Shown here: piece after piece, positions 24,477-32,671 of the stretch
How positions within the stretch are numbered: the stretch's first letter is position 1
Layout of the letters: the number at the start of each line of letters is the position of its first letter
DNA from: Salinirussus salinus
GTDB lineage: Archaea > Halobacteriota > Halobacteria > Halobacteriales > Haloarculaceae
Direction: 5' to 3'
Length of the DNA stretch: 64,000 nt
Assembly (NCBI RefSeq): GCF_009831455.1
Contig: NZ_WOWO01000004.1
Span: 434,001 to 498,000, forward strand
Made by a program: the position numbers and the translations under genes
The notes under the pieces: generated by a model
What the model was told of the DNA's origin: nothing
Seen by the model: only the letters and a program-made list of their open reading frames with translations
Databases searched by the model: none

Positions 24477-24569
24477 ATGAAAGCCCCGGGACGTTCGACT
24501 CGGGGTCGGGAGGTTGCCCCTCGCGTACTCCCGGACCTCCATGAAAGCCCCGGGACGTTCGACTCGGGG
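24477..24569. repeat. Pair of 29-bp direct repeats, 64-bp period
   Basis: Copies at 24477-24505 and 24541-24569 are identical (starting ATGAAAGCCCCGGGACGTTC). The 35 bp between them is GC-rich and unique. Only two copies exist here, so it is not a CRISPR array. Confidence 0.8.
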
Positions 24570-24801
24570 GCCTCGCTGCGCTCCTCGGCCTCCGGCCTGC
24601 GGTGCTTGCGTCAGCCGCCGTCGTCGAACGCCTCGCCCCTTTCAGTCCCGCCCGACGCCACGTGCCTCCCCAGCCGATTCGCTCCTTCGCTTCGCTCAGT
24701 CGCTCATCCCTCGCACGGTGCTCGTCGCGGCCGGAGCCGCGACAGCGCGCGCCCGGCCCGACTATCCAGGTCGGGCGGGGTTGAAAGGGGGGGCGGCTTT
24801 C
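24477..24801. other. Hairpin-dense non-coding island A
   Basis: No gene is seen from 24405 to 24899. The stretch opens with two copies of a 29-bp direct repeat (24477-24505 and 24541-24569, beginning ATGAAAGCCCCGGGACGTTC), each able to form a CCCCG/CGGGG hairpin. Further on, a 19-nt inverted repeat (24638-24656 with 24770-24788, two mismatches) encloses an 8-bp perfect hairpin GTCGCGGC-CGGA-GCCGCGAC (24724-24743) and a 7-bp one (24756-24776). GAAAGCC at 24479 and GGCTTTC at 24795 could be its ends. The head GAAAGC(C/T)CC(G/C)GGACG is shared with island B at 49.4 kb. It could be a structured RNA or a non-autonomous mobile element. Confidence 0.5.
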
Positions 24802-24899
24802 TTGCTGTTCTGGGCAGTCTCGCTCTCAGAATTACCCGCCCAACCACGCCATCAGAGAGAGACCGGAACGTTTCTTGTCCGGACGGGCGACCTGGGGGT

Positions 24900-25931
24900 A
24901 TGACCAGCGTCAAGGACTTTCGCGTCGAGGAGCCCGCCACCCCGGAGGCCCTCGGCCGCGGGAGCTTCCGGTTCACCGACGACTACAGCGTCTTCGACTG
25001 GGGGAAGATGCCCGACGAGATCCCCGACAAGGGCGCCTCGCTGTGCACGATGGGGGCGTTCAACTTCGAGTTGCTGGAGGCGGCGGGCATCCCGACCCAC
25101 TACCGGGGAGTCGTCATAGATGGCGAGCCGCTAGATGTCGACACGGCCCTGGACCACGGGGTCGCACCACGCGAGATGGCCATCGACCTGGCGCAGGTCC
25201 CTGACCTTCCCTTCGACGAGCGCGAGGGGTACGACTACGACGCCTACCACGAGGCTGCGGGGTCGAACTACGTCGTCCCCCTGGAGGTTGTCTTCCGGAA
25301 CCGCGTGGGGGCCGGGTCGTCGTTGCGCTCGCGGACGGAACCGGGCGAGCACGGTCTCGACCACGGGGCGTGGCCCGAGGGGGCAGTGGACCTGCCGGAG
25401 GCGGTCGTGGAGTTCTCCACGAAGTACGAGGAGCAGGACCGGTATCTCGACCCCGCCGAGGCCGACCGGATCGCGGGCGCCGCAGAGCTCGCGGAACTCG
25501 AGGCGCTGGCCCGCGAGGTCAACCGCGTCGTGACCGAGCGCGCCGCGGAGACCGGGTTCGTCCACCAGGACGGGAAGATCGAGTGTGTCTACCACGACGG
25601 CGACCTGCTGGTCGCTGACGTCGTCGGCACCTTCGACGAGAACCGCTTTTCCTACGACGGCCAGCAGGTCTCCAAGGAGGTGCTCCGGCAGTACCACAAG
25701 CGGACCCAGCCGGGGTGGGTCGAGGCCGTGGGCGCGGCCAAAGCGGAGGCCGACCGGCGCGGCGTCGCCGACTGGAAGGGGCTGTGTGACCGCGCGCCCG
25801 ACCCGCTGGAGAACCACGTCCTCGGCGTCGCCCGCGACCTCTACTGCGCAGGCACGAACGCCTACGTCGGCCGGGAGGTCTTCGACGCGCCGACCATCGA
25901 CGAGGCCGTCGCGTCCGTGCGGGACCTCTGA
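24900..25931 (+). CDS. purC: Phosphoribosylaminoimidazole-succinocarboxamide (SAICAR) synthase
   Basis: 343 aa, the longer haloarchaeal form. Contains the SAICAR-synthetase core: [17 protein letters not shown] at the N-terminus, [11 protein letters not shown] for substrate binding, and the ATP/metal region [19 protein letters not shown] with DENRF. It condenses CAIR with aspartate in purine synthesis. The frame is open upstream to 24477 through island A, but the family start is [14 protein letters not shown] at 24900. Other purine genes in the window (purU, purS, purQ) lie 5-7 kb away, not in the same operon. Confidence 0.93.
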
Positions 25932-25950
25932 GGTACCGGCCCGTCCGCGG

Positions 25951-26418
25951 TCATCCCTTGCCCCCGCCCGTGCAGGCGACGGTGACCGTCCGGGTGGTGT
26001 CGACGCTGACGTCGTCACCGGTGGCACTGACACCGACGGTCCACGTTTCGGTGTCGGTGCCGGGCGAGGCGTCACAGTTGACCGTCGCAGTCACAGCCGC
26101 TGCCTCCCCCGTGCCGAGATGGTCCGGGGCGTCGTACCCCTGTAGGACCGGTGGGGTCGGACCGTCCCCCCGCACAGTGACGTCGACAGTCAGGGGTTGC
26201 TCGAACCGGTTCGTGAGTGTCAGGACGACCACGTCCTCGGGAGGGCCGGCGCCGACTGTCGGCTCGGCGGGCTCGGCGCCGACGTACGCTTCGCCCTCGT
26301 CGGCGACCGCCAGTTCGACTGAGCGGTCGCCGGAGATCGTCGCGACCCCGCCGGTGCCCGTCGTGAGGAGGACCAGGGTGGCGATGGCGACGACGCCGAG
26401 CCTCCGCAACCGGTTCAT
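25951..26418 (-). CDS. Secreted protein of the DUF1102/signal-peptidase cluster
   Basis: 155 aa. A Sec-type signal peptide (MNRLRRLGVVAIATLVLLTT, then TGTGGVATIS) is followed by a beta-rich domain: AVADEGEAYVGAEP, VLTLTNRFEQPLTVDVTV, an NCDAS segment and a final VTVACTGGGKG. The two cysteines could form a disulfide outside the cell. The strand pattern DEGEAY.G.E resembles the start of DUF1102-type mature proteins (the gene at 27365 has DQNAYLKL), so it may be a diverged relative. It overlaps the upstream regulator gene by four bases, forming a two-gene operon divergent from the DUF1102 gene. Confidence 0.72.
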   Translation of the reverse strand: MNRLRRLGVVAIATLVLLTTGTGGVATISGDRSVELAVADEGEAYVGAEPAEPTVGAGPPEDVVVLTLTNRFEQPLTVDVTVRGDGPTPPVLQGYDAPDHLGTGEAAAVTATVNCDASPGTDTETWTVGVSATGDDVSVDTTRTVTVACTGGGKG

Positions 26419-27014
26419 CGCTCCACCTCCGGAGGGCTGCTACTGGTGCCGAGGCGCATCTCCGTCCGGCCGTAGTAGGCGTGGACGAGCGCGGAGACGA
26501 GAAACGTCGTCAGGACGAACACGCCGAGAGCGATGTCGGGGACGCTCCCGAAGAAGGGGAGCCCGGCGTAGCCTGCGCCGAGCACGCCCGCGTTGGCCGT
26601 GCCCAGGAGGAGGTAGTACTGGCTCCAGGGGACGTCCCGGCCCTCGACGACCTCCAGGTAGAGGTCCAGGTCCTCGGCGGCCGGCCCGAGCGTGACGACG
26701 CCGGCCCGGTCGTCGAACTCGACGATGCCGGTCTCGTCCATCCGCGGGAGGTGCACCTGCTGGAGGGAGGTGTACACGCGCTTTCGCTCGTCGGCCGAGA
26801 CCTCCCGCACGCTCGTCCCGTTCTCCCAGGCCGCCACCCGCTCGGCCAGCTCGCCCAGTTCCGCCCGCTCGCCGTTTCGCTGGAGGTGCCGGAGTGCGAA
26901 CCGACGGCGGTGATTGCTCAACAGGTCGAAGGCCTCGTCGCGCCAGCTGCGCTGCTCGTCGGGAATCGCCGGGCCCTCGCCCTCCGATTTCCGACCCACC
27001 CCCGTCGCGCTCAT
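26415..27014 (-). CDS. Membrane-anchored winged-helix regulator (DUF7344-like)
   Basis: 199 aa from 27014 (MSATGVGRK); an in-frame ATG at 27062 would add 16 residues. The N-terminal half is a winged helix typical of DUF7344: FDLLSNHRRRFALRHLQRNG, then the Leu-rich helix, VYTSLQQVHLPRMDETGIVEFD and the wing. Two hydrophobic helices follow (about 129-150 and 155-178 in this numbering), so the DNA-binding domain is tethered to the membrane. It overlaps the secreted-protein gene and faces the DUF1102 gene across 350 bp, which suggests that it controls this surface cluster. Confidence 0.8.
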   Translation of the reverse strand: MSATGVGRKSEGEGPAIPDEQRSWRDEAFDLLSNHRRRFALRHLQRNGERAELGELAERVAAWENGTSVREVSADERKRVYTSLQQVHLPRMDETGIVEFDDRAGVVTLGPAAEDLDLYLEVVEGRDVPWSQYYLLLGTANAGVLGAGYAGLPFFGSVPDIALGVFVLTTFLVSALVHAYYGRTEMRLGTSSSPPEVER

Positions 27015-27364
27015 GGGTCCCCGGGTCGCCAGCATCCCCCGTTTCCGAGTCGACGCCCCCACGCCAGACTCGACGTACTCCCCCGATTGTCAATCATTGG
27101 TTGCGTATATCATTCGATTGCGTTCTGCTTAGATACAGGGCGACTAACAACTCGTTACCAGCTGACTACGGGCCGGAAACAGCCGGCTACTCGGTTTCTG
27201 TCGGAGCCTGATGCCGGGCGGCGGTTTTCCGCCCGCCCCTGAATCACCTTCAGCTTGCTTGATACAATGGGGGTGGCAGGGCTGGGTGTGGACAAGCACG
27301 CCCGCCCCGGGACCGGTCGTCTGTCGACGTGGCGTCGCCGGCGGGCGTGCGACAGGAGACAACA
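27015..27364. other. Divergent promoter region of the DUF1102 cluster
   Basis: 350 bp without a supported gene. An AT-rich core at about 27087-27135 (GCGTATATCATTCGATTGCG region) would hold the promoter of the membrane winged-helix gene. The right end has CAGCTTGCTTGATACAATGG, a weak TATA-like element for the DUF1102 gene that implies a leader of about 90 nt. No clear palindromic operator was seen. Confidence 0.4.
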
Positions 27365-27931
27365 ATGAAACGACGCAAATTCCTCGTGGGCCTCGGGGCC
27401 CTCTCGGCAGGGACCGCAGCGACGATCGGCACGAGCGCGTTCGAAGGTGCGTACATGAACGGCGACCGGTCGATGACGCTCGACGTCGCCAGTGACCAGA
27501 ACGCGTACCTGAAGCTGAGACCGACCAGTCAGTACGCCTCCACTGAAGCGGTCAGCGGAGGCTGGGAAGGCGGGCAGGGTGTGAGCCAGCTGACGGTCAC
27601 GATCGACCGCCTGAACCCCAACATGGACACCCGGCTGGACGACGTCTTCCGGGTGCAGAACACGACCGGCGAGGAGTTCGAGCTGCTGATCGACGACTCC
27701 CCGGACTGGAACGGCGGCTACGAGGACACCCTCCAGATCTTCGCCCAGCCGTCCAGCGGGAGTCCGGTCCGGCTGGATGACGGCGGCTCGATCACGCTCG
27801 GTGCTGGTGAAGAGGTCGAGATCAACATCATCGTCCTGCTCGCTTCCGGTCCAAACAGCGGGGACCCGAACGGGTTCAGCGACCCCGACACGCTGTCGTT
27901 CACTGCCGACGGGACGGACTCGAACGCCTGA
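27365..27931 (+). CDS. DUF1102 exported protein (TasA/camelysin-like candidate)
   Basis: 188 aa. The N-terminus MKRRKFLVGLGALSAGTAAT has a twin-arginine RRKFL signal with a hydrophobic stretch and a GTSAFEG cleavage region. The mature part is beta-rich: MTLDVASDQNAYLKL, VTIDRLNPNMDTRLDDVFRV, VEINIIVLLASG. DUF1102 proteins occur beside signal peptidases in archaea and resemble the bacterial TasA/camelysin fibre proteins. The next gene is a SipW-like signal peptidase 119 bp downstream. The likely role is a secreted surface or matrix fibre subunit; that is inference. Confidence 0.78.
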   Translation: MKRRKFLVGLGALSAGTAATIGTSAFEGAYMNGDRSMTLDVASDQNAYLKLRPTSQYASTEAVSGGWEGGQGVSQLTVTIDRLNPNMDTRLDDVFRVQNTTGEEFELLIDDSPDWNGGYEDTLQIFAQPSSGSPVRLDDGGSITLGAGEEVEINIIVLLASGPNSGDPNGFSDPDTLSFTADGTDSNA

Positions 27932-28049
27932 CGCGTTCGACGTGTCGGTCCCGGCGACACGGGCCGCGTAGTCGCCGTTTACTCCAATTTTTGTTGCACC
28001 GTAGCCACCGAGTACTTGTAACACCCGACGCGCAAGCCCCGGTCGGCAG

Positions 28050-29201
28050 ATGGGGGTGCGCAGCATCGGTGCGCGGGTAGGGGGAGTCGCCGTCGTCGCC
28101 GTCGCCGCGACGGTCGCCGTCGGCGCGCTGTTCGGCCAGCCGCTGCTACTGGGATTCGTCGAGACGGGCAGCATGCAGCCCGGCCTGGCTCCCGGCGACG
28201 GCTTCGTGGCGCTCCCGCCGGCGCTCGTCGGGGGGGTCGGGGTCGGCGACGTCGTGACCTTCCGGGCCGAACAGCTCAACGGCGGTGGACTGGTCACCCA
28301 CCGGGTCGTCGGCGTCACGGACGAGGGGTTCATCACCAGGGGCGACGCCAACCCCGTTCGCGACCAGGCCGGCGACGAGCCGCCGGTCAAGCGCGCACAG
28401 GTCGTCGCCGTCGCCCTCCAGGTCGACGGCGATGTCGTCGCTCTCCCCCACCTCGGAACCGCCGTCTCCGCAGCCACTGGCGCAGTTCGTGGGGTACAGG
28501 GCACGCTGGCCCGAGTCACGGGGTTCTCCTCGTTTCTCGGCGTCCGGGGGCTTGCCTACCTTCTCTTCGTCCTCTCGCTCGTCTGGTACGCGGTCGGGGC
28601 GTGGCGCGGCGGCCAGGCCGGCCGGGAGCGCCGCGAGACGGCCCGGGAAACGGGCCACAGCGCCCGGCTCGCCGTCGCGGGTCTCGCCGCGCTGGTCGTG
28701 CTCGTCGCGACCGCCAGCATGGCGCTTCCGGCGGGCACCCAGGAGTACGAGGTCGTCAGTGCCGAGTTCGACTCGGAGGGTGCCCGCGTGATCCCGATGG
28801 GGGAGTCGGAGACGACGACACATCCCGTTGGCAACGGGGGCGTCCTCCCGACAGTAGTCTATCTCGAACCGGCCAGCGAGGGGGTGACGGTGCAGCCACG
28901 CGAGACGTACCTCGAGGGCGGCGACCGCGAGAACGCGACGGTGACCCTCCAGGCCCCGCCGGAGACGGGGCTCTACCGGCGCTTCGTCGCCGAGCACCGG
29001 TATCTCGCCCTGTTGCCGCGCTCGGTCATCCACGACCTCCACGGCCTGCACCCCTGGGCGCCGGTCCTCGCCATCGACGCCCTGCTCGGTGTGCCGTTCT
29101 ACGTTCTGGGGGTCTCGCTGGTCGGGCGCGGCCGCGTTCGCACCACCACCCGGGACGGTCCCTCGGCCCTCCGGCGCGCGCTCACCCGACTCAAACCATG
29201 A
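28050..29201 (+). CDS. SipW-like signal peptidase I
   Basis: 383 aa, longer than a minimal archaeal enzyme. A first membrane helix (about residues 8-28) is followed by the catalytic domain with Ser41 in ETGSMQPGL, His84 in VTHRVVG and Asp99 in TRGDAN: the Ser/His/Asp set of archaeal and SipW enzymes. Two or more C-terminal helices follow (LAYLLFVLSLVWYAVGAW; LAVAGLAALVVLVATASM) plus an extracytoplasmic beta domain (residues ~245-325) and a last helix. It probably processes the DUF1102 and associated proteins. It overlaps the DUF5305 gene by four bases. Confidence 0.85.
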   Translation: MGVRSIGARVGGVAVVAVAATVAVGALFGQPLLLGFVETGSMQPGLAPGDGFVALPPALVGGVGVGDVVTFRAEQLNGGGLVTHRVVGVTDEGFITRGDANPVRDQAGDEPPVKRAQVVAVALQVDGDVVALPHLGTAVSAATGAVRGVQGTLARVTGFSSFLGVRGLAYLLFVLSLVWYAVGAWRGGQAGRERRETARETGHSARLAVAGLAALVVLVATASMALPAGTQEYEVVSAEFDSEGARVIPMGESETTTHPVGNGGVLPTVVYLEPASEGVTVQPRETYLEGGDRENATVTLQAPPETGLYRRFVAEHRYLALLPRSVIHDLHGLHPWAPVLAIDALLGVPFYVLGVSLVGRGRVRTTTRDGPSALRRALTRLKP

Positions 29202-30460
29202 CATCGAAACTCAGACTCAGGGCAGTGCTGGACCGCAACCGCGGGTTCGCCGTCGCCGCCTTGCTCGCGTGTCTCCTGCTCGGGGGGTGGCTGACCTACG
29301 GCGCCTACGCCGCGCCGGGCACCCACCTCGAGGAGCGACCCGAGTCCGAGTGGACGCTCTCGGGCTCGCTGTCTCACGGCGCCACCGTGACCGGCGCGGC
29401 CAACGGCACCGCGTTCGACCCCGGCGAGCGGGTCTCGAACCGCTCGGTCTACTTCGAGCGGGTGATGCCGGTCCTCCGGGGGAACCTCTCGCTGGCCGCG
29501 ACCGGCGCCGACACACCGGTCGAGGTCCGCGTCAACCGCTCGGTGACGGTCAGGAGCGTCGATGCGGGCGGACCCGCCGAGCGGTCGACGGTCTACTGGG
29601 AGAACCGGACCGCGCTCGGAGCCACCAGGGTCACCCTCGCGCCCGGCGAGCGCCTCCGGCTCCCGTTCCGGACAAACGTGACGCGTGCGCTCCAGCGGGC
29701 GCGCAACGTCAGCGAGCGGCTCGACTCCCCCGGGCAGCCCCGCGTGCTGGTCATCACGACGGCCGTCGCGACCAGGCAGGCGGGGGACGCTCGCCCCCGG
29801 CAGCTCCGGCTGACGCTCTCCATCGACGATGACGGCGGCGTCTACCGCGTCCGGACCGAGCCGGTCTCGCAGACGTTCACCGAGACGGAAACGGTGCCCG
29901 TCCCCAACGACCCCGGCCCGCTCCGGGAGGCCGGCGGGCCGCTGTTGCTGGTCGGCGGCGGCGCCGGGCTGGCGGGGATCGGGGCGCTGGCCGTCCTGGG
30001 TCGGCTCGGACTGACCGGCCGGGAGCGGGCGTGGCTGGACTACCGCACCCACCGCGCCGACTACGACGAGTGGGTCACGACCGTCCGGCTCCCGCCGGAG
30101 GCCGAGCGGCTCCCGGCCGGCGAGGCGCCGACGCTCGCCGACCTGGTCGACCTCGCGATCGACACGGACAGCGCCGTCCTCGAAGCGCCCGACGGCGACG
30201 CGTACCACGTCATCGACGACGGCTACCGGTACACGTTCGAGCCGCCGGCGGACCCGACGGACCCGGCGACCGACGACGGGAGTCAGGACGCGGACCCGCT
30301 CGACGCGGACGCGACCCCGCCTGATACGGACGCGAACGGAGCTCCGACCGACGGCGACGGCGCCGACCTTCCCACCCGGATCGGCGCGCTGCTGGGGGCG
30401 GAGGACGGGGGCCGGCCGGAGGAGAGCACGACGGTCGACGACGGCGACCGGGAGTCCTGA
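29198..30460 (+). CDS. DUF5305 membrane protein of the signal-peptidase cluster
   Basis: 420 aa. N-terminal helix (about 17-37), a large extracytoplasmic beta domain with the DUF5305 pattern (LEERPESEWTLSGSLSHGA, NRSVYFERVMPVLRGNLSL), then a second helix (about 240-262) and an acidic cytoplasmic tail rich in Asp/Pro/Thr. It starts inside the signal peptidase stop codon (ATGA). DUF5305 proteins are found next to SipW-like peptidases in haloarchaea; the role could be as assembly or anchor partner of the exported fibre proteins. No enzymatic motif visible. Confidence 0.8.
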   Translation: MTSKLRLRAVLDRNRGFAVAALLACLLLGGWLTYGAYAAPGTHLEERPESEWTLSGSLSHGATVTGAANGTAFDPGERVSNRSVYFERVMPVLRGNLSLAATGADTPVEVRVNRSVTVRSVDAGGPAERSTVYWENRTALGATRVTLAPGERLRLPFRTNVTRALQRARNVSERLDSPGQPRVLVITTAVATRQAGDARPRQLRLTLSIDDDGGVYRVRTEPVSQTFTETETVPVPNDPGPLREAGGPLLLVGGGAGLAGIGALAVLGRLGLTGRERAWLDYRTHRADYDEWVTTVRLPPEAERLPAGEAPTLADLVDLAIDTDSAVLEAPDGDAYHVIDDGYRYTFEPPADPTDPATDDGSQDADPLDADATPPDTDANGAPTDGDGADLPTRIGALLGAEDGGRPEESTTVDDGDRES

Positions 30461-30467
30461 CCTCGCC

Positions 30468-31445
30468 TCAGTCGTCGGCTTCGGGACTCTCCTGCTCGGC
30501 GACGACCTCGCCCAGGCCGTCGACGGGGCGGTCGGGGACCAGCTTGTCGAGTTCCTCGGGCGCGCCGAGCTGCGCGTCGCTGTCCTCGGGGTCACGCAGC
30601 CGCGTGCGCCCGCGGTGGACCGTCACCTCGTCGTCGAGGTGGAGGTCGATGGCCTCGAGCAGGGCATCCGCTTCGAGGGGCTGGCCGATGCGCCGGAGGT
30701 CCTCCGCGTCGACCTCGGGGTCCTGGGGGACATTAAAGGCGCGCTGGGTGATGATCGGCCCCTGGTCTAAGTCCGTCGTCACGTAGTGGGCGGTAACGCC
30801 GGCGATCCGGACCCCTTCCTCCAGGGCCTGGAGGTACGCCTCGGCGCCCGGGAACGAGGGCAAAAGCGAGGGGTGGACGTTGATGATCCGGTTCTCGTAG
30901 CGGAAGACCACGTCCGGGCTGAGGATGCGCATGTACCGCGCCAGCACCACGAGGTCGACCTCGTACTCGGCGAGCAGGTCGAGCAACTCCGCCTCGTCGG
31001 GGGTCCCCTTCTCGTCGCCGATGTCGTGGAAGGGGACGTCGTACTTCTCGGCGAGCGGCTGGAGGTCGGGGTGGTTGCCGATGACGACGCTGACCTCGGC
31101 GTCCAGGTCTCCGGAGGCCCAGGCCTCGAAGATGGCCTCCAGGCAGTGTGACTCCTTGGTGACGAGCACCGCGAGGCGGCTGGTCTCCCGGTCCGCGGGG
31201 AAGCGGACCTGCACGTCGACGCCCAGCTCGTCGCCGAGTTCGGCGAGGTCCTCCCGGAGTTTCTCCTGGGTGCAGACCATCTCGCCGGTGTCGACGTGCA
31301 TCGTCATCCGGAAGACGCCCTCCCGGACGGCCTGGTCCAGGTCCTCGATGTTGATCGACCGCTCGAACAGCAGCGTCGTCACCTCGGCGATGAGTCCCGT
31401 GTCGTCCTCGCCGACGACGGTGATCTCGGTGAACTCGCTCGTCAC
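30468..31445 (-). CDS. purU: Formyltetrahydrofolate deformylase
   Basis: 325 aa from a GTG at 31445 (VTSEFTEITVVGEDDTG). The first ~85 residues are an ACT-type regulatory domain (GLIAEVTTLLFERSINIEDL); the rest is a formyltransferase fold with NVHPSLLPSFPG and the catalytic Asp/His in GVTAHYVTTDLDQGP. A longer-than-usual acidic C-terminal tail (about 40 residues after the TVHRGRTRL strand) is common in haloarchaea. PurU releases formate from 10-formyl-THF and so balances one-carbon units for purine synthesis, fitting its place near purS and purQ on the other strand. Confidence 0.93.
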   Translation of the reverse strand: MTSEFTEITVVGEDDTGLIAEVTTLLFERSINIEDLDQAVREGVFRMTMHVDTGEMVCTQEKLREDLAELGDELGVDVQVRFPADRETSRLAVLVTKESHCLEAIFEAWASGDLDAEVSVVIGNHPDLQPLAEKYDVPFHDIGDEKGTPDEAELLDLLAEYEVDLVVLARYMRILSPDVVFRYENRIINVHPSLLPSFPGAEAYLQALEEGVRIAGVTAHYVTTDLDQGPIITQRAFNVPQDPEVDAEDLRRIGQPLEADALLEAIDLHLDDEVTVHRGRTRLRDPEDSDAQLGAPEELDKLVPDRPVDGLGEVVAEQESPEADD

Positions 31446-31686
31446 GGCCGCCACCCCATGTCGGTCATCGTTGCCAGATAGCTGACCGTCGCCGGACAAA
31501 AACGTTCGTTTCCGGGCCGGCGGCTGGCGGTGTGGCACGGGACAGCCCCGGGGGTCGCCCGGCTGGCCCTCCCCTCGTGGACAGGGAGGCCAGTGGTCGG
31601 CGCGCCGTCGCACGGGGTTGCAGAGGCGGGACGACCGGGCCGGGGAACCGCAAGCGTTTTCGACGGCGCCGGCCCGGTACGAACCG

Positions 31687-31944
31687 ATGACCGCCTACAC
31701 CGCCACCGTCACCGTCCGGCTCAAGCGGGGGGTGCTCGACCCCGAGGCCGAGACCACCCAGCGCTCGCTGGAGCGGCTCGGCTTCGAACTCGAGGACCTG
31801 CGCTCGGCCGACCAGTTCGAGGTCGACCTCGACGCCGCGGACCGCTCCAGCGCGGAGCAGCGGGTCACCGAGATGACCGAGCGGCTGCTCGCCAACCCGA
31901 CCATCCACGACTACGAGGTCGCGGTCGCCGAACGCGAGACATGA
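31687..31944 (+). CDS. purS: FGAM synthase subunit PurS
   Basis: 85 aa. MTAYTATVTVRLKRGVLDPE and the QRSLERLGF helix match PurS, the small dimeric subunit that joins PurL and PurQ to form phosphoribosylformylglycinamidine synthase. Start at 31687 fits the family; the open frame extends upstream without family sequence. purQ follows 49 bp later. purL is not in the window. Confidence 0.94.
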   Translation: MTAYTATVTVRLKRGVLDPEAETTQRSLERLGFELEDLRSADQFEVDLDAADRSSAEQRVTEMTERLLANPTIHDYEVAVAERET

Positions 31945-31993
31945 CTGTTGCTCCTCCGGCGGCGACCGTCGGTTCCCACACGAGGTGGTCACT

Positions 31994-32671
31994 GTGACGG
32001 TCGCCGTCGTCCAGTTCGGCGGCTCGAACTGCGACCGCGATACCGTCCAGGCGCTCGAGTCGCTCGGCGTCGACGCCGGCCTGGTCTGGCACGAGGACGG
32101 CCTGCCCGGAGACACCGACGGCGTGGTGCTCCCCGGCGGATTCTCCTACGGCGACTACCTCCGGGCGGGGGCGATGGCGGCCCGCTCGCCTGTCATGGAG
32201 GAGGTCCGGGCAGCCGCCGAGGACGGGGTCCCGGTGCTGGGTGTCTGCAACGGCGCCCAGATCGGCTGTGAGGCCAGCTTCGTGCCCGGCGCCTTCACCA
32301 CCAACGCCAGCGCCCGCTTCCAGTGTGAGCGCGTCCACGTCCGGGTCGAGAACGCCGACACGCCCTGGACCCGTGCCTACGACGAGGGGGAGGTGCTCGA
32401 GCTGCCCATCGCCCACGGCGAGGGCCGCTTCGAGGTCGACGACGACCGGCTGGCCGACCTCGAGGACGAGAACCGCGTGCTCTTCCGGTACTGCGACGCG
32501 TCCGGCGAGGTGACCGACGACGCCAACCCGAACGGCTCGAAACACAACGTCGCCGGACTCACCGGCGACCGGGAGCACGTCGCGGTGATGATGCCCCACC
32601 CCGAGCGGGTCACGCTCCCCGACGTCGGCGCCACCGACGGACGGGGCGTGCTCGCGGCCTTCGCGGACTGA
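31994..32671 (+). CDS. purQ: FGAM synthase glutaminase subunit PurQ
   Basis: 225 aa class I glutamine amidotransferase. The start is a GTG at 31994 giving the family's VTVAVVQFGGSNCDRDT; a GTG at 31985 would add three residues. The nucleophile Cys is in LGVCNGAQIG and the catalytic His-Glu pair in MPHPERVT. It supplies ammonia from glutamine to PurL in the fourth step of purine synthesis. Co-transcribed with purS. Confidence 0.95.
   Translation: MTVAVVQFGGSNCDRDTVQALESLGVDAGLVWHEDGLPGDTDGVVLPGGFSYGDYLRAGAMAARSPVMEEVRAAAEDGVPVLGVCNGAQIGCEASFVPGAFTTNASARFQCERVHVRVENADTPWTRAYDEGEVLELPIAHGEGRFEVDDDRLADLEDENRVLFRYCDASGEVTDDANPNGSKHNVAGLTGDREHVAVMMPHPERVTLPDVGATDGRGVLAAFAD

Follow-up and report, generated by a model that had tools for sequence, protein, structure and literature searches.

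The window analysed here is a stretch of 64,000 nucleotides from the haloarchaeon Salinirussus salinus (contig NZ_WOWO01000004.1, positions 434,001 to 498,000), and positions 25951-30460 within it carry a divergent cluster of five genes. We read this cluster, with a probability of roughly three in four, as a compact fimbria module of its own lineage that forms a thin surface fibre and works beside a second module of the same genome. The module is related to the haloarchaeal fimbriae (tafi) named after the twin-arginine translocation (Tat) pathway (Galeva et al., iScience 2025, 28:111793, as cited in PMC12687288).

All five open reading frames (ORFs) of the original prediction are present in this interval. 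On the plus strand, three genes follow each other in the order pilin, peptidase, DUF5305: P0006 (27365-27931, 188 amino acids) with a Tat signal and a TafE/TafA-like sequence is the putative fibre subunit, P0003 (28050-29201, 383 amino acids) is a signal peptidase of the SipW/Sec11 type, and P0004 (29198-30460, 420 amino acids) is the DUF5305 protein. Two genes run divergently on the minus strand. These are P0002 (26415-27014), a DUF7344 winged-helix protein for which a GTG at 27062 is possible as an alternative start, and P0001 (25951-26418, 155 amino acids), a TafC-like secreted protein. Each same-strand pair P0001/P0002 and P0003/P0004 overlaps by 4 bases. Promoters and any binding of a regulator would be expected in the stretch that separates the divergent genes P0002 and P0006 (27015-27364). 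A comparison of 21 divergent intergenic regions of this kind yielded no established regulator-binding motif. Some 8-9-mers exceed mono-nucleotide shuffles, with CGGTCAAC occurring in 9 and TATTGTAAT in 7 of the 21 regions, in loci that are mutually related.

Pilin, peptidase and partner proteins

P0006 matches the NCBIfam family TafE with an E value of 1.2e-16 and 60.9 bits and TafA with 18.1 bits, and reaches neither of the two cut-offs (155 and 190, respectively). For an alignment and profile of 58 P0006-like proteins, all 58 members match TafE at E<=0.001 and 55 of them match TafA. The profile finds the PDB chain 9p0a_C with an E value of 3.2e-36 in a full-length match over positions 2-181, and the PDB title of 9p0a is 'Structure of Natrinema sp. 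J7-2 Tafi pilus'. The phmmer neighbours of the 9p0a pilin are mixed between the two lineages described below and do not assign it to either. The original prediction had labelled P0006 a DUF1102 protein. This label holds for the family, in which 21 of the 58 members match Pfam DUF1102 (PF06510) at E<=0.1 (best 6.6e-9), but not for P0006 itself, which shows no match at E<=1.

The AlphaFold2 model of P0006 is all-beta, with a mean predicted local distance difference test score (pLDDT) of 73. In the VIA comparison, 9p0a ranks first with a Z score of 8.9 (2.8 A, 121 residues), practically level with the Pyrobaculum bundling pilus 7ueg at 8.6. Unrelated Ig-like chains appear at 7.5 and below, others at 6-7, the Sulfolobus thread 7pnb at 7.0, and MSP chains also match at about 6.6. 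A comparison with TasA and camelysin had been suggested for this protein. The predicted fold is related to that of the TasA-like archaeal fibre 7ueg. An unrelated fold, which would have spoken against the original prediction, was thus not seen, and neither was a direct match to TasA: the VIA rows listed for P0006 do not include it, and no camelysin family is among the Pfam and NCBIfam matches listed.

The signal region of the family is strongly conserved. The twin arginines are invariant across the alignment, Ala25 is found in 58/58 members and Phe26 in 57/58. The mature starts of TasA and TapA are given as AFNDI and AFHDI in an excerpt of PMC10151520. According to PMC10269814, the archaeal-like SipW cuts TasA with its aromatic P2' residue in Bacillus, while TasA is incompatible with E. 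coli LepB or cut poorly by it. In 9p0a, 188 of 215 residues are modelled; should the missing stretch lie at the N-terminus, the model would begin with the Phe of Ala-Phe. Given the near-invariant Ala-Phe, the starts of TasA and TapA and the specificity of SipW, cleavage by P0003 in front of Ala-Phe would be a close parallel to the processing of TasA by SipW, with Ala25-Phe26 as the putative mature N-terminus of P0006.

P0003 scores 52.5 bits against TIGR02228 (archaeal signal peptidase I) and is thereby over the cut-off of 51.85; against the Bacillus SipW equivalog NF046067 it scores 31.1 bits, with the cut-off of 190 not reached. Its catalytic set is Ser/His/Asp rather than Ser/Lys, and S41, H84, D99 and D105 are each conserved in 37/37 sequences of the alignment. 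The assignment as a SipW-type Ser/His/Asp peptidase is supported by these residues and by TIGR02228, with the match to SipW itself below threshold. At E<=1e-8, three proteins in the genome of the window match as signal peptidases. These are P0003, its counterpart in the second module and a third, weak match (E 7.9e-9), which by inspection of its ORF is without an ectodomain of the P0003 kind.

This ectodomain is a predicted beta-sandwich of about residues 222-340 (28713-29069, plus strand). It is located outside, after the catalytic part, between transmembrane (TM) segments TM3 (207-225) and TM4 (339-357), which leaves residues 226-338 between them. The domain is conserved in both lineages, and five of its residues (Gly, Asn, Pro, Arg and Pro) do not vary across the 37 sequences of the alignment. 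Its AlphaFold2 model has a pLDDT of 85.7. Grouped by title, most of the 50 best VIA rows are of the MSP/VAP, ASH/hydin or PapD type. The best Z score is 8.0 for MSP, and the pilus chaperones PapD, Caf1M and FimC reach 5.6-6.2, values that can reflect a common arrangement. Since the pilin model also matches MSP chains, the PapD/MSP fold class is not specific proof. Sequence profiles do not support homology with PapD: hhalign of the ectodomain against four E. coli K-12 chaperones gives a probability of 1.4%, and Pfam PapD_C is found in 1 of 37 members, with an E value of 0.1. The best PDB profile rows for the ectodomain are designed armadillo repeats (E 6e-4). With about 5 bits for the single repeat, they were judged spurious.

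From the predicted fold, one could imagine P0003 as a processing-and-capping enzyme, a proposal that we hold to be doubtful. The first extracellular domain would cut the pilin, and the second, membrane-tethered and PapD/MSP-like, would lend a strand to it until the N-terminus of the next subunit replaces this strand. If true, signal peptidase and pilus chaperone would be one protein in single-membrane archaea, and no usher would be involved.

P0004 is a DUF5305 protein as originally labelled (Pfam PF17231, E 3e-37, 128.6 bits, above the gathering score of 29). It consists of a TM segment (16-34), an ectodomain, a second TM segment (249-267) and, on the cytoplasmic side, a tail of about 150 residues. 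The two TM segments and the long tail fit a membrane platform better than an anchor. P0002 is likewise confirmed as a membrane winged-helix protein (DUF7344, Pfam PF24035, E 5e-31) and is the putative membrane-bound regulator of the module. Its C-terminal end contains at least one strong TM segment (161-179). P0001 had been described as a secreted beta protein. The secreted type stands, but the protein is not unrelated to known families: it matches TafC with an E value of 9e-21 and 74.4 bits (cut-off 410, not reached), with its residues 16-150 aligned to positions 19-145 of the 373 of the profile, which is the N-terminal domain only. A phmmer search of P0001 against the PDB gave no match. Its signal is hydrophobic and looks like a Sec-type one: the N-terminus 'RRLG' fails the Tat pattern used, and the maximum 15-residue hydropathy is 2.2. 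The Tat motif is present in 14/24 TafC-like proteins of the window lineage versus 21/25 of the other lineage, counted from rule-based start positions that could be incorrect for individual proteins. P0001 is probably a minor subunit exported via the general secretion (Sec) pathway.

Conservation in haloarchaea and two lineages

The distribution of the families was determined in a class sample of 194 haloarchaeal genomes, including that of the window. P0006 has matches in 125 and DUF5305 in 158 of these genomes. TafE is found at E<=1e-10 in 140 genomes, 19 of which reach the cut-off, and TafC in 87 genomes, 14 of them over the cut-off. TafA is over the cut-off in 18 genomes. When 20 loci of other genomes were chosen by their P0006 match, peptidase and DUF5305 are both nearby in 16. 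Conversely, of 20 loci selected by DUF5305, hand-picked from the listed matches and not random, 17 have a peptidase in the neighbourhood and 18 have a pilin there. In a scan of named genomes, 279 relatives of the peptidase were confirmed. Of the 80 that were kept, 63 have at least 5.5 kb of upstream and 2.5 kb of downstream sequence. In these 63 loci, DUF5305 lies next to the peptidase in 52; a pilin is present in 51, a divergent DUF7344 gene in 51 and a TafC-like gene in 39; DUF5305, pilin and DUF7344 occur together in 39. The family hidden Markov models, which also served for the DUF5305-selected loci and these 63, were built from the window and 41 loci, and the survey of those same loci is not an independent test.

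Chance co-occurrence of the five families is rejected by the counts for the P0006-, DUF5305- and peptidase-selected loci. We conclude that the five genes are one conserved haloarchaeal module and that the divergent five-gene layout of the original prediction occurs together far beyond chance. Other loci repeat the exact layout of the window with one pilin, among them those of Salinibaculum litoreum (L121) and Halorubellus salinus (L122). Many modules of the window lineage contain an extra protein of about 300-560 amino acids between pilin and peptidase, which matches the pilin profile weakly and is absent from the window. Examples are locus L042 (8066-9661), L047 (8485-10092), L053 (7824-9263) and L088 (9018-9950).

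The modules fall into two lineages. The maximum-likelihood tree of 54 peptidases separates 27 from 27 rows with a support of 100/98. In the half of the window, four families of the sample (f1-f4) are represented, and the other half contains all 14 loci with TafA/TafE equivalogs together with L006, the second module of the window's genome. In the DUF7344 tree, the same two groups are parted at one branch, with 26 and 23 rows and a value of 98 in the Shimodaira-Hasegawa-like approximate likelihood-ratio test (SH-aLRT). As the peptidase and DUF7344 trees split alike, peptidase and membrane winged-helix protein have been co-inherited in two old branches, in agreement with the earlier proposal of a dedicated peptidase with a winged-helix partner. 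The DUF5305 tree needs two changes: L072, L073, L074 and L077 of the tafi side carry a DUF5305 protein of the window side, apparently by a swap of this gene between the two systems. Gene order differs as well: DUF5305 comes directly after the peptidase, on the same strand, in 26/27 loci of the window lineage versus 3/27 of the other. For the comparisons of gene order, DUF7344 and DUF5305, lineage membership was copied by hand from the peptidase tree. Loci that have no peptidase stand outside the trees, for example L046, L051, L057, L058, L089, L097, L099 and L107.

The window module belongs to a very widespread lineage that is separate from the loci with TafA, TafC and TafE equivalogs. No description of the window lineage, its layout or its peptidase ectodomain was found in the literature searched, which did not cover the original tafi description. 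Three genomes hold one module of each side: that of the window (G000, with the window and L006), G055 (L059, L077) and G180 (L084, L083). L006 (2621-12650; contig C2 of G000, about 630.6-640.7 kb) is a second taf-like module that lies in a run of biosynthetic genes, between leuB-like and leuD/leuC-like ones, and contains two tandem TafA/TafE-like pilins with their own set of partners.

The module of the window is embedded in a run of purine-synthesis genes (24477-32671). An ORF for SAICAR synthetase (PurC) precedes the module, and ORFs for a formyl-transferase/ACT protein (PurU-like), PurS and a PurQ-like protein follow it. Such purine-gene neighbours are seen in 0/141 other loci, so the site seems particular to the genome of the window. 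Two relatives of the peptidase are found on plasmids. On pHsi55 of Haloarcula sinaiiensis (L202, 8001-10132), a peptidase relative that has no listed gene adjoins an annotated DUF5305 gene, with genes for PKD-domain and hypothetical proteins nearby. On pHME505 of Haloferax mediterranei (L201, 7926-9077), a distant relative with 35.6% identity lies at the start of the record, with no listed DUF5305 or pilin gene nearby.

Proposed assembly and alternative explanations

By analogy with tafi and TasA, we propose the following route for the module. P0006 would be exported in folded form via Tat, and P0003 would cut off the signal just before Ala-Phe. The N-terminal strand that is freed by this cut could complete the open beta-sandwich of a neighbouring subunit by donor-strand exchange, and repetition of this step would give a thin fibre. 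P0001, as a TafC-like relative of the pilins with a single domain, would be a minor subunit at the start, tip or base of the fibre. P0004 may serve as the two-TM platform in the membrane, with its long tail in the cytoplasm, and P0002 may act from the membrane as a sensor and as the regulator of the module.

Several observations weigh against this reading. In single-sequence phmmer searches, P0006 and the 9p0a pilin are distant, with an E value of 0.0016 (2.4e-6 in a smaller pool). Foldseek with the P0006 model returns nothing at E<=0.001, the best row being 7ueg with 1.6e-3. With this result and a mean pLDDT of 73, the fold match depends on the match in sequence. The family closest to P0006 is TafE, named 'adapter', and not the major pilin TafA, and P0006 is the single pilin of the cluster. 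A nearby peptidase or DUF5305 is missing from 4 of the 20 P0006-selected loci (L046, L051, L057, L058), and 12 of the 63 peptidase-selected loci are without a strong pilin within the flank. In the literature searched, no experiment on the window lineage was found.

The adapter-like sequence of P0006 leads to the strongest alternative, which we still consider unlikely. The cluster would then build no fibre of its own, and the TafE-like P0006 and the TafC-like P0001 would be extra adapter or tip subunits for the fimbria of L006. The closeness to the 'adapter' family, the lone pilin gene and the presence in L006 of two tandem pilins with their own partners all favour this. However, the window module comes with a peptidase, a DUF5305 and a DUF7344 protein of its own, which are of another lineage than those of L006, and a single strong pilin is found in 19/63 named loci of this kind, which points to the one-pilin form as a recurrent complete unit.

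A second alternative, for which we see little room, is that P0006 and P0001 are surface proteins of a camelysin- or S-layer-associated type that do not polymerise, processed by a dedicated peptidase with no filament being formed. A beta-sandwich alone does not imply polymerisation, as the other Ig-like chains at Z 6-7 illustrate. Nevertheless, the two best structural matches, 9p0a and 7ueg, are both filament subunits, and the strength of the profile match to 9p0a and the nearly invariant Ala-Phe start also argue against this explanation.

Least probable of all, at only a very small chance, is that the cluster is the ordinary tafi locus of the organism and orthologous to the TafA/TafC/TafE locus of Haloarcula: the five gene families are the same and P0006 and P0001 match TafE and TafC, but no TafA match at E<=1e-20 is found in the genome and the peptidase and DUF7344 lie across well supported splits, the two grounds on which identity with the TafA locus itself was rejected, and moreover the gene order differs and G000, G055 and G180 each carry one module per kind.

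If the reading as a separate fimbria module is true, it is common for haloarchaea to possess two fimbria systems in parallel, and each of the two has a peptidase and a membrane-bound winged-helix protein of its own. One of these systems is close to the published tafi, and the other, the window lineage, is seemingly unstudied on its own. In most haloarchaeal genomes, DUF5305, these DUF7344 proteins and many 'hypothetical' Tat proteins would gain a likely function. Donor-strand assembly of a fibre on a single membrane and independent of an usher would become testable, with the peptidase ectodomain as a concrete candidate for a part in it.

Comparison with known systems

In its predicted fold, the P0003 ectodomain resembles the chaperones PapD, FimC and Caf1M of chaperone-usher systems, with Z scores of 5.6-6.2. 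In contrast to these chaperones, the ectodomain shows no sequence relation to them, is membrane-tethered and is fused to a signal peptidase, and the window cluster differs from chaperone-usher systems in that no usher is seen. The archaeal bundling pili of Pyrobaculum calidifontis (7ueg) resemble the module in the predicted fold of P0006. This comparison is limited to the subunit, and unlike for 9p0a, searches of the PDB with P0006 by phmmer or profile give no sequence match to 7ueg.

With the tapA-sipW-tasA system of Bacillus subtilis, the module shares a dedicated peptidase of the SipW type and a mature Ala-Phe N-terminus, which is reported for B. subtilis in excerpts of PMC9674648 and PMC10151520 and is putative for P0006. 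It differs in the Tat-type signal, the ectodomain of the peptidase and the partners DUF5305 and DUF7344. Of the originally predicted TasA-type fibre system, the secreted beta-sandwich subunit with its own peptidase is retained, but the nearest system is tafi. No paper on 'DUF1102' or 'DUF5305' was found in the literature searched.

Compared with tafi, the same five families are present, that is Tat-signal pilins of the TafA/TafE type, a TafC-type protein, DUF7344, DUF5305 and an ectodomain-bearing signal peptidase. The window module differs from tafi in that its peptidase and DUF7344, and mostly also DUF5305, are of the other lineage, that it has one pilin and no TafA equivalog in a different gene order, and that P0001, which covers no more of TafC than its N-terminal part, is without a Tat motif. 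We conclude that the window cluster is related to tafi in the broad sense and that its nearest characterised relative is tafi and not TasA of Bacillus.

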